A DNA stretch of 32,210 nucleotides, taken from IMG/VR virus record IMGVR_UViG_3300027743_000066, positions 1-32,210 of that record. The stretch is one strand, 5' to 3'. The stretch is from a virus. The translations under genes were made by a program, and so were the position numbers. This document shows, one piece after another, positions 22,854 to 27,852 of the stretch. The number at the start of each line of letters is the position of its first letter. Within the stretch, counting starts at the first letter, position 1. Under the pieces are notes generated by a model, which was given only the letters and a program-made list of their open reading frames with translations, made no database searches and was not told the DNA's origin.

Positions 22854-22878
22854 GACGGGTTCCTTGGTTGAAGCCATA

Positions 22879-23831: not shown

Positions 23832-24531
23832 TGTCGTTTCCTTGGTTGCTAAAGTTTTCGTCGAGCCACTCGCCGAGAATGTCGCCGTTGTCCTTCTTGC
23901 CGCCGCGCACCGTCTGGTCCTCCCAGCGATCCTGATTGAGCCAGGTCGCCGGGTTGCACCAGTTGCGATCGTCGCGCTTGTTCACGTAACGCTGCAGCCC
24001 AGCCATGATGACATCGACCTCGGCCCGCGTGACCGCCTTGTCCCATGCCTTCCTGCCAGCGCCCTTGCCGGTTTTGTTCGGGTACAGGCTCCAGAACGCA
24101 TCGAACGCCTGTTGCGCTAACGTTTGCAAACGTTGGCTAACGTTGGGCTGCAACTCAGGGTCGGGCTGTAACGTGACGTCACGTGACGTCACGTGACTAG
24201 GCGTCTTACTTTCAGACGTTTCAGACGCCTTAAGACGCGATTCAGACGCTTTAAGACGCTGGTAATAGCGCGCATTGCGCTCCTGGCGGGCCGTCCGCTG
24301 CCGCGCCTCCTTGAAAATCTCCAGAACCCCAACAATCTGAGCAGCCGTCAGCCCAAGTGTTTCGAGTTTGCGGATCAGGTCGAGGGGCATGGCGTCTTTC
24401 GCTGTTTGCGGGTCGAAAATCGGCCGTCCGTGGGCTGCTAGTGCTAACTCATCTACCTTCACTAGGCTTTTGACTGTTGGTGAGTTCTGAGCGAAGGGCA
24501 AAGGAGGACTAAGCCCCGTGCCTTGCGACAT
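23710..24531 (-). CDS. Replication initiation protein-like (phage O-like C-terminal domain)
   Basis: The protein has 273 residues. The N-terminal half contains LDLIRKLETLGLTAAQIVGV and a basic stretch. The central region is low complexity and includes RLKASE repeats encoded by the iterons. The C-terminal domain reads AFDAFWSLYPNKTGKGAGRK, then AWDKAV and NPATWLNQDRWEDQT, the pattern typical of phage replication O-like proteins. It should bind the repeats lying inside its own gene and start leftward replication. The end overlaps the next gene by 122 bases. Confidence 0.75.
   Translation of the reverse strand: MSQGTGLSPPLPFAQNSPTVKSLVKVDELALAAHGRPIFDPQTAKDAMPLDLIRKLETLGLTAAQIVGVLEIFKEARQRTARQERNARYYQRLKASESRLKASETSESKTPSHVTSRDVTLQPDPELQPNVSQRLQTLAQQAFDAFWSLYPNKTGKGAGRKAWDKAVTRAEVDVIMAGLQRYVNKRDDRNWCNPATWLNQDRWEDQTVRGGKKDNGDILGEWLDENFSNQGNDNGQEDSGRHHGNVERLSAEQREGFKGRTIDLPPATRNGRH
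24119..24259. repeat. Iteron/palindrome cluster inside the initiator gene: putative replication origin
   Basis: The cluster holds a perfect 16-base palindrome AACGTTTGCAAACGTT. Tandem ACGTGACGTC units follow, each containing the palindrome GTGACGTCAC. Then come five TTMAGACG(C) repeats starting at 24211, 24220, 24230, 24241 and 24251. Lambdoid phages carry their origin iterons inside the O gene in the same way. Confidence 0.6.
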
Positions 24532-25319: not shown

Positions 25320-25573
25320 GGCTTGTCCCTCAGTTGCCGCGCCGCAATCGACGCCGCAACACGCTCCTGAAAACGACGCTTGCGGGTAGCCTCCCGATCA
25401 GCCTTGGCCACCGCCCGTTCAGCCTTGGCGACATCAGCGGCCTTTGCCGCAAGCACGGCCTCGACAGCTTCAAGACGCGCCTCAAAACGCGCCAGCGCCG
25501 CGGCCTGGTCCTGATAGGCGCCAGCAATCCGCTGGTAGCGGGCCTTCCAGCGCGTTTCTTCATCGTCAGGCAT
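25316..25573 (-). CDS. Hypothetical coiled-coil protein
   Basis: The 85-residue protein is almost entirely helical and Ala/Arg-rich (FEARLEAVEAVLAAKAADVA, then KAERAVAKADREATRKR). It is probably a coiled coil. It overlaps the Cro-like gene and the DUF1064 gene. No family is recognised. Confidence 0.65.
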   Translation of the reverse strand: MPDDEETRWKARYQRIAGAYQDQAAALARFEARLEAVEAVLAAKAADVAKAERAVAKADREATRKRRFQERVAASIAARQLRDKP

Positions 25574-25763
25574 CCGCCTTCGCCCGCGCCTTCATGGCGT
25601 CCAGCACCCGGCGCTTGGTCGCCTCGCGCGGCTCTCGGCCGGATCGAAGGTCAGCTACGAAGTTGGGATCGCTCGCGTAATCGCGGCCGAACGTCGTTGC
25701 CGACAGGCCGTGGTCCTGCATGTATTGCTCGACGCGCTTGCGGAATGTGGTCAAAGTCATCAT
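25566..25763 (-). CDS. Small Cro-like DNA-binding protein
   Basis: The protein has 65 residues (ATGATG start; either Met possible). The sequence TLTTFRKRVEQYMQDHGLSA, then TTFGRDYASDPNFVADLRSG and REPREATKRRVLDAM, follows the compact HTH family often found beside phage control regions of rhizobia and Rhodobacterales. It probably represses the divergent promoters next to it. GGAGG lies upstream of the start, inside a hairpin. Confidence 0.75.
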   Translation of the reverse strand: MMTLTTFRKRVEQYMQDHGLSATTFGRDYASDPNFVADLRSGREPREATKRRVLDAMKARAKADA

Positions 25764-25766
25764 GGC

Positions 25767-25797
25767 TGTTGGTAACCTCCAACAAAAAAAATGTCAA
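25767..25797 (-). promoter_or_regulatory. Leftward promoter and SD-containing inverted repeat of the Cro-like gene
   Basis: TTGACA and TACCAA lie 17 bases apart on the minus strand. TGTTGG and CCAACA form an inverted repeat (25767-25784) around the GGAGG site, with the ATG three bases further on. A transcript from this promoter would start at or next to the ATG, so the dyad is more likely an operator than an mRNA hairpin. Confidence 0.5.
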
Positions 25798-25843
25798 TGT
25801 ACGAAAATAATCATTGACGAGCGTGTTGGGAATGTCCTACACG
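25793..25843 (+). promoter_or_regulatory. Rightward promoter of the peptide/early operon with operator-like dyads
   Basis: TTGACG (25814-25819) and TACACG (25838-25843) have an 18-base spacer containing TTGGGAATGTCCTA. GTCAATG and CATTGAC (25793-25818) form a dyad that joins the two divergent -35 boxes. The AT-rich stretch between them is the least GC-rich short segment nearby. Confidence 0.55.
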
Positions 25844-25874
25844 TTCAGCCATCGTCAACCAAGGAAATGGACCC

Positions 25875-26009
25875 ATGAAGAAACTGATTATCGCCCTCGC
25901 CGCCCTGACCGCTTTGGGCAGCATCGCCTACGCTGGTACCTGCAACAGCAACTGCCGCTGGGTCGGAAACCCGGTGAATCAGTGGCAGTGCACCCAGACC
26001 TGCAATTGA
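25875..26009 (+). CDS. Secreted four-cysteine peptide (44 residues)
   Basis: AAGGAA lies before the ATG. The signal peptide MKKLIIALAALTALGSIAYA has a basic start, a hydrophobic core and an AYA cleavage site. The mature part is about 24 residues and holds four cysteines in the pattern CNSNC - 11 residues - CTQTC. This CX3C...CX3C spacing resembles disulfide-stapled helical hairpins. The product should be exported to the periplasm or beyond. It is the first rightward gene from the control region, so it could be expressed early or in lysogeny, for example in exclusion or host interaction; the role is unknown. Confidence 0.75.
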   Translation: MKKLIIALAALTALGSIAYAGTCNSNCRWVGNPVNQWQCTQTCN

Positions 26010-26025
26010 GTTAGGCGGGGGAGAA

Positions 26026-26061
26026 GGGGGATGCGGGCAAGGCCACTCGCTCACATCCCCC
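26026..26061 (+). terminator. Hairpin after the peptide gene (terminator or attenuator)
   Basis: GGGGGATG and CATCCCCC form an eight-base-pair stem with a 20-base loop, followed by the weakly T-rich GACTGCTTCTTTC. It could partly separate the peptide gene from the downstream operon. Confidence 0.45.
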
Positions 26062-26091
26062 GACTGCTTCTTTCAACCAAGAAAGACGGCC

Positions 26092-26286
26092 ATGAAACAA
26101 CACATTCACGTTTCGAGCAAGAGCTATCGCCTGCCGCACGCGCCCTCCTACGTGGTGTTGGTGATGCCGGAAGGCGCCGAGCGGGGCGAATATTACCGGG
26201 TCGGCGCATACGCCCTGAACCGGCTGGAAGAGGGCGACACGCCCGACGATCTGGGCCTTGAGCCCATCAATGCGGAGGACGAGTGA
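26092..26286 (+). CDS. Hypothetical small protein
   Basis: The 64-residue protein opens MKQHIHVSSKSYRLPHAPSY. It continues with VVLVMPEGAERGEYYRVGAY and an acidic tail. No domain is recognised. A CAACCAAGAAA leader lies upstream and the stop shares a base with the next ATG. Confidence 0.65.
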   Translation: MKQHIHVSSKSYRLPHAPSYVVLVMPEGAERGEYYRVGAYALNRLEEGDTPDDLGLEPINAEDE

Positions 26287-26552
26287 TGGCTTACGCTATC
26301 GACGAAATGCTGGATACGCTTGAGAAGAAAAACGAGGCACTCGAAGACGAAGCCAACCGCCTCGCTCAGGAACTCGACCTTCGGCAGTCGGAACTGCGCC
26401 GTGCGCGCGCCGCTCTGGAGGAATGCCTCGAATATTTCCAGGAACGCCAGGACGGCGAGTACATCGACGGGAAACCGGTCGGAAACCAACCCATGCGTAT
26501 GGCTTCTATGATTGAAGAGGCTCTAGGGAGAGGAGGCCGGTATGGCCTCTAA
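26286..26552 (+). CDS. Hypothetical coiled-coil protein
   Basis: The 88-residue protein has a long heptad-like helix (MLDTLEKKNEALEDEANRLA, then QELDLRQSELRRARAALEEC). A C-terminal part GKPVGNQPMRMASMIEEALG follows. ATG is preferred over an in-frame GTG three bases earlier because it forms TGATG. No function is known. Confidence 0.65.
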   Translation: MAYAIDEMLDTLEKKNEALEDEANRLAQELDLRQSELRRARAALEECLEYFQERQDGEYIDGKPVGNQPMRMASMIEEALGRGGRYGL

Positions 26553-27024: not shown

Positions 27025-27202
27025 AATCGATAGCTCGCACAACGAATACATGGCCCGCAGTGCCATCCGCGCCCTGCTCCAGGAGCACCACGGCAATCGC
27101 TTCACTGTCGAGGCGAAACTCTCAATCTGGATCATGGAAGAATACCGAGCTTGGCTCGGCCCCGCAGCACATCCCGCAGCACATAAGGATAAGACCCCAT
27201 GA
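27014..27202 (+). CDS. Hypothetical small protein
   Basis: The 62-residue protein opens MSDEIDSSHNEYMARSAIRA and continues LLQEHHGNRFTVEAKLSIWI. Helical and acidic, with no recognised family. It overlaps the HNH gene by 11 bases and the next gene by four. Confidence 0.6.
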   Translation: MSDEIDSSHNEYMARSAIRALLQEHHGNRFTVEAKLSIWIMEEYRAWLGPAAHPAAHKDKTP

Positions 27203-27852
27203 GCACGCTAGACCCCCGCATCGAAAAACTCCGCGTCGAGTATGGTCTCGAGAGGACCGATTTCTGGGAGTTGCCGCAGAAGAAAGGCACATGGCTGGTG
27301 AAGCATTCCGCCCTCGAAACGGTCGCGGCCAAGGCCAACATCACCTTCGACCTGCCGGAAATCATCGAGGCGCGCACGGCCGACAAGATCGCCGTCATTG
27401 TCGCCCGCGGCTTCAGGGGCGAGCGTTCCGAATGGTCGTTCGGCGAAGCCTCCCCGCTTAACAACAAAAACTCATATCCTTTCGCGATGGCCGAAAAACG
27501 AGCCAAAGACCGCGTGATCCTGAAACTGGCCGGGTTGCATGGGCTGGTCTACAGCGAGGATGAAATAGCCGACGAGGAACCGCGCCGGTCGAGCGCCTCC
27601 CTGAAGCGCGAAAGCTCGTGGCCGCAGTTCGCGCCGGAACTGGCCGAGGTGTCGAACGAGATCCAGCTACAGAACTTCGTTGCCGCTTGGCGCAAGATCG
27701 CGATCGACGAGCAGTGGAACGCCTCGTTCAAGGAGACGGCAAAAGACCTCATTGACGGCAAGCGGGCCGAACTGGCGAAGCCTGTGGCGGATGATGATAC
27801 ATTCCCCGGCGACAAGCCGAACGCCTACGAGAGCGCCTTCAGGGCAGGCTGA
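27199..27852 (+). CDS. Conserved phage protein, probable DNA recombination/annealing role
   Basis: The protein has 217 residues. The N-terminal domain has WLVKHSALETVAAKANITFD, ADKIAVIVARGFRGERSEWS and, further on, NSYPFAMAEKRAKDRVILKL before AGLHGLVYSEDE. The 'YPxxMAEKRAxxRxxLxLxGLxGxVYSEDE' pattern occurs in phage proteins near recombination genes and resembles Rad52-like annealing proteins. The C-terminal third is variable and charged. The function is inferred from this resemblance and from its place in the early operon. Confidence 0.6.
   Translation: MSTLDPRIEKLRVEYGLERTDFWELPQKKGTWLVKHSALETVAAKANITFDLPEIIEARTADKIAVIVARGFRGERSEWSFGEASPLNNKNSYPFAMAEKRAKDRVILKLAGLHGLVYSEDEIADEEPRRSSASLKRESSWPQFAPELAEVSNEIQLQNFVAAWRKIAIDEQWNASFKETAKDLIDGKRAELAKPVADDDTFPGDKPNAYESAFRAG

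Follow-up and report, generated by a model that had tools for sequence, protein, structure and literature searches.

What does a gene of only 44 codons and a stop, standing at the head of a rightward operon in a phage genome, encode, and what might its product do for the virus? The gene lies in a 32,210-base virus contig, analysed here over its whole length (the window), whose left arm encodes portal, scaffold, coat and tail proteins along with a terminase. This terminase shares 73% identity with those of the Rhizobium phages RHph_N3_2, RHph_N2, RHEph18 and RHph_Y25, and the host of the virus is a Rhizobium-like bacterium. An original prediction, made from the letters of the DNA, had read the gene as encoding a secreted four-cysteine mini-peptide comparable to alpha-hairpinins, and we evaluated that reading against a related contig, against a large collection of viral contigs and against structural models.

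The gene and its control region

The mini-protein gene occupies 25875..26009 on the + strand, and its translation, MKKLIIALAALTALGSIAYAGTCNSNCRWVGNPVNQWQCTQTCN, was split at a predicted cleavage site placed by eye into a signal peptide, MKKLIIALAALTALGSIAYA, and a mature part, GTCNSNCRWVGNPVNQWQCTQTCN. The predicted signal peptide (residues 1-20; 25875..25934, + strand) has a KK pair, a hydrophobic core and an AYA cleavage motif, whereas the mature part (residues 21-44, 24 aa; 25935..26006, + strand) is a predicted beta-hairpin with cysteines at 23, 27, 39 and 43, that is CX3C-X11-CX3C, tryptophans at 29 and 37 and a net charge of +1. The translation thus bears out the proposed combination of an export signal (by eye) with some 24 mature residues in this cysteine spacing. 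GC3 of the gene is 0.80. A filter for a signal peptide plus CX3C..CX3C, applied to 785 kb of phage DNA fetched as loci found via neighbouring genes, passed nothing beyond the window gene, its ortholog and a GTG-start ORF that is unconvincing.

That ortholog lies in a related IMG/VR contig, 3300020020_000100 (L002/L009), at L009 1029-1157, and its peptide, MKKLIFALTALTVLGSATAYAANCTTRCNWVFKTWTCTETCY, is 57% identical to the window peptide. The two contigs also have in common the control region, the divergent gene (69% identity) and the next two genes (52% and 79%), and a neighbour-gene scan with the 26286-26552 product recovered this same related contig alone. Two indels, of 3 nt and 9 nt, separate the peptide genes without breaking the frame, and all four cysteines and both tryptophans are retained in L009. 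Comparison by NG86 gave dN/dS of 0.10/0.40 for the signal peptide, which is the best conserved stretch, and 0.42/0.54 for the mature part (few codons), a pattern that reads as a scaffold being kept while other residues change. Since start codon, ribosome site, signal, the four cysteines, both tryptophans, stop and hairpin are all preserved in the related contig, and the indels leave the frame intact, 25875-26009 is a real gene.

In the window, as had been proposed, the mini-protein gene is the first rightward ORF beyond a divergent control region; in L009 it is the second gene of the operon, with a small gene (~83 codons) between promoter and peptide, such that the first-gene position holds for the window and is no fixed rule. 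A rightward promoter probably lies at 25814..25843 on the + strand (TTGACG at 25814-25819, 18 nt, TACACG at 25838-25843) and is conserved in L009 as TTGACG-N17-TACATG, and a leftward promoter of the divergent gene probably lies at 25775..25797 on the - strand (TTGACA at 25792-25797, -10 near 25770), with a 22-nt offset between the TTGACA and TTGACG boxes that is exactly kept in L009. Since no sigma-70 site in the control region passes a crude consensus scan, we infer the rightward promoter rather than assign it. The divergent gene itself (25566..25763, - strand, 65 aa) had no Pfam or PHROG family match, and so it is from position that its product is taken as probably a small control-region regulator, of undescribed type.

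Nine nucleotides upstream of the mini-protein ATG stands a Shine-Dalgarno-like AAGGA, within a leader, CAACCAAGGA (25856..25865, + strand), that also precedes L009 genes. This ten-base leader, CAACCAAGRA, has four copies in the window against 0.05 expected, at 22861-22870 and 23839-23848 on the - strand and at 25856-25865 and 26074-26083 on the + strand. Two of the four stand before the mini-protein gene and the next operon gene (26092..26286, + strand, 64 aa, no assigned function, 52% identity in L009), and in the window's phage group the element may extend the translation-initiation signal or have a regulatory function. Between these two genes is an RNA hairpin 3' of the stop (26017..26070, + strand; core 26026-26061) that stops right before the CAACCAAGAA leader of the next gene. 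The proposal of a hairpin here held up well (-33.2 kcal/mol, z -3.2, with z -4.5 at the equivalent place in L009), but it has no U-run and is therefore not a canonical terminator, and a terminator scan found no terminator-like site at 26017-26070. Elsewhere in the window, a recombinase-like gene (27199-27852) is 85% identical to L009:1950-2693 over residues 120-217 with differing N-terminal parts, and is thus modular; the N-terminal part of the window version resembles hundreds of other viral contigs.

Related peptides in other phages

Scanning degenerate DNA patterns over 2.9 million IMG/VR viral contigs, with filters for frame, stops and a signal peptide, added roughly a dozen distinct proteins, 39-45 aa long, or ~14 distinct sequences in all with L400 included. 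Their layout is a signal peptide, CxxxC, 4-9 residues, CTx[TS]C and one last residue, and inter-arm loops across the family measure 4, 6, 8, 9 and 11 residues, two relatives having the 4-residue loop. The peptides carry charges of 0 to +2, are rich in Thr, Ser, Asn and Gln, and come from contigs with differing neighbouring genes and GC ranging from 36% to 65%. M1, the four cysteines and the Thr after the third cysteine are invariant in the alignment (A5), the Thr partly through selection because one search pattern required it. Scans 1 and 8 set no stop requirement, and all members found there end one residue past the last cysteine. The family was recovered by patterns built on cysteines, and scan 2 returned 19 in-frame matches against 8.4 expected (~2x chance); members were separated from chance by their signal peptides and by shared features absent from the patterns, not by scan counts.

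Genes as short as this one escape annotation, and no family in Pfam, NCBIfam, PHROGs or PADLOC covers the members, with no Rfam match above gathering. Searching the members against cultured phages and plasmids by tblastn, which is insensitive with such short queries, gave no credible match, and a looser viral scan showed no in-frame member among the 119 stretches listed. Two candidates were rejected, namely L084 (returned by the one scan of genome contigs), a 338-aa ORF with the signal peptide alone in common, and PHROG 20687, which covers residues 1-19 only and whose model matches 11 of 14 control genomes. Near 4586-4714 of L213 (- strand) lies a tandem pair of small AT-rich ORFs that overlap, one of them with a signal-like start and several cysteines (CTTCCYGNNCNTSC); these were judged doubtful and excluded, and are possibly distant family members or another cysteine-rich pair. 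A 251-aa ORF at L415:6026 and L416:4666 is made up almost entirely of repeated C-x-x-C / CT-G-C units (MMTCINTCNGCSEECTNGCTGCGACTTACN...) and is a chance pattern match. Every member found lies on a contig of uncultured origin, and prophage or host DNA may be present in some of these contigs. With genes of this kind in some twelve uncultured phages that are unrelated to one another, the peptides look to be a phage accessory family that has so far been overlooked.

Evaluating where these genes lie, we found early or control-region placement in the window, L009, L106, L153, L222, L238 and L252. The L106 member sits in an operon of small genes, after which comes a Sak-like annealing protein, that of L153 directly 3' of a repressor-like gene and 5' of a primosomal gene, and that of L252 after a gene resembling ERF recombinase by eye; the members of L222 and L238 come first beyond a divergent region, across which L238 encodes a DNA polymerase. 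Four further members (L094, L186, L204, L208) are near large structural-looking genes, those of L094 and L186 adjoining small coiled-coil membrane proteins with no PHROG family match; two (L093, L121) are near an endolysin-like gene and then a terminator, L093 being also near an integrase; and the L165 and L400 members are in accessory stretches. The gap after the gene holds a hairpin or clear terminator in L093, L121, L165, L204, L238 and L400, and none in L106, L153, L222 and L252. No common neighbour gene among the members points to a target. Conservation in related phages, on which the original prediction had staked its reading, came out divided, in that no such ORF occurs in two cultured Rhizobium relatives of the window phage and the gene is present in one closely related contig and in many phages unrelated to it. 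Given this absence from two related Rhizobium phages and the early, late or near-integrase placement elsewhere, the mini-protein gene behaves as accessory, exchangeable cargo.

Predicted fold of the mature peptide

AlphaFold2 with the family alignment revealed a predicted beta-hairpin for the window peptide (strands 23-30 and 36-43, block pLDDT 78-84), as did AlphaFold2 for L222 (strands 25-30 and 37-42), and the modest overall scores (pTM ~0.3, mean pLDDT ~70) are to be expected for a signal peptide and some 24 residues. The C23-C43 and C27-C39 pairs suggested earlier proved compatible with a beta register, both summing to 66, and this nested register, which does not depend on the model, makes a facing pair of W29 and W37 in the window and of W30 and W35 in L009 despite loops of 11 versus 8. 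GN, GG, QG, PG or GA lies exactly at the hairpin centre in eight of ten distinct even loops (permutation p of 0.008 for any Gly, 0.001 for Gly count and 0.002 for centred GN), and loop length is even in 8/10 by group, a parity that is suggestive only by itself. The mature part is predicted to be held as a beta-hairpin by two nested disulfides. Metal binding via four free cysteines seems unlikely in an oxidising periplasm. Searching the PDB by sequence gave no significant match and Foldseek with the L222 model no match; with the window model, the first PDB match was alvinellacin at a non-significant E of 6.1, which is a likeness of form and not evidence of homology.

The alpha-hairpinins of plants are secreted like the window peptide and share its 4C motif, defined as CX3C-X4-20-CX3C (PMC11591084), and it was from this motif that the comparison had been drawn. 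They are helix-loop-helix peptides, however, whereas AlphaFold2 gives strands and no helix in the mature parts of the window and L222 peptides. The Thr-rich arms, the loops of 4 residues (which could hardly join two helices), the Gly turns centred on the loop and the Trp-Trp register also speak against a helical hairpin, such that this fold is scarcely credible here and the comparison had to be given up.

Possible roles and relation to known systems

The reading we favour, if with somewhat less than even confidence, is that of an exported, disulfide-locked beta-hairpin binder in the envelope of the infected cell, with exclusion or inhibition as its preferred job. The mini-protein would be exported by Sec and its signal cleaved, freeing the 24-residue mature part, which host disulfide machinery would oxidise in the periplasm so that C23-C43 and C27-C39 clamp a single hairpin, the cross-strand Trp pair adding a clamp in the window/L009 branch. 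Expression would be early, from the control-region operon, in the window and several relatives. As one of an unnamed, moron-like accessory peptide family spread over unrelated phages, the product would be a rigid, protease-resistant binder at the periplasm or surface, with a turn varying in length and sequence, and would block an envelope step or enzyme for the benefit of the phage, in the Spackle manner of superinfection exclusion. Computation supports the gene, its conservation, the export signal, the family, the beta-hairpin model and the accessory distribution; oxidation, location, target and the exclusion role we infer. Exclusion or envelope modification seems the most plausible class of role, and an exclusion or inhibitor role is favoured because early expression and exchange between phages fit it, with the four members near late structural genes and the two near an endolysin-like gene being a poorer fit to exclusion.

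Those late-placed members bear on a different job, that of an envelope or lysis helper, in which a small periplasmic factor tunes lysis or protects the wall in phage development. The coiled-coil membrane proteins adjoining the L094 and L186 members and the endolysin-like gene near those of L093 and L121 would suit it, but the window and at least six others place the gene in early or control-region operons and the adjoining membrane proteins match no PHROG family, which leaves this role quite improbable. It is also unlikely that the peptide is a released, antimicrobial or bacteriocin-like beta-hairpin acting against competing cells. Its size, cysteine layout and predicted fold are those of the nested-disulfide peptides of animals, alvinellacin is its top (non-significant) shape match, and its +1 charge is just inside the range of 1 to 8 given for beta-hairpin antimicrobial peptides (PMC13001179), yet members range from 0 to +2 and are Thr/Ser/Asn/Gln-rich rather than amphipathic, and next to the mini-protein gene we noticed neither an immunity gene nor one for dedicated export.

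Placement next to a divergent control region raises the thought of a secreted signal by which infected cells or lysogens communicate, encoded at the region controlling lysis and lysogeny, as with the arbitrium peptide precursor AimP, which is also small, exported and encoded close to a phage control region. The likeness to AimP is confined to the signal peptide, however (NCBIfam model, residues 1-22 only, 13.4 bits versus a cut-off of 35, E 0.068), and the mini-protein has a four-cysteine mature part; with no AimR-like receptor among the flanking genes scanned and late-region members that lack adjoining regulators, we consider communication very unlikely. A chance ORF or leader sequence without peptide function could account for the high dN in the mature part, but hardly for frame-keeping indels that retain four cysteines and two tryptophans, a GC3 of 0.80 and a dispersed family of the same layout, and we regard it as highly improbable.

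If the favoured reading of an exported envelope binder is true, a rigid scaffold of 18-24 residues with a variable turn, swapped among unrelated phages, would be a cheap means of altering the host envelope, and the family is a directly testable set of peptides for the function of small exported phage proteins. The peptides may also resemble Bowman-Birk inhibitor loops or ice-binding Thr arrays, and neither likeness enters the reading given here. T4 Spackle is an early, exported, disulfide-containing periplasmic superinfection-exclusion protein (PMC7677548), and the mini-protein would be like it in being an early phage gene with a cleaved export signal and a small disulfide product, in the window by prediction; the T4 protein folds as an alpha-helical bundle of 75 residues with a single disulfide, and has no sequence or fold relation to the mini-protein.

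In build, the phage peptides are like the eukaryotic beta-hairpin peptides alvinellacin (PDB 2LLR; 22 residues, two disulfides), capitellacin, the tachyplesins and gomesin, being secreted and having ~17-24 residues, four cysteines and two disulfides, with the phage hairpin and disulfides predicted. The class is defined by a single hairpin of 11-25 residues with one disulfide or more; the window mature part has 24 residues, and its hairpin, backed by the turn statistics, and its disulfides are again predicted. Unlike these eukaryotic peptides, those of the phages have charges of 0 to +2, are Thr-rich and come from a precursor that adds a signal peptide only, without a BRICHOS domain. Natural beta-hairpin antimicrobial peptides are catalogued so far from five eukaryotic phyla only (2026 review, PMC13001179). 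It is possible, though we hold this as doubtful, that a class of beta-hairpins with two nested disulfides evolved independently on the prokaryotic side and that phages carry it as exchangeable cargo acting on the bacterial envelope or between cells.
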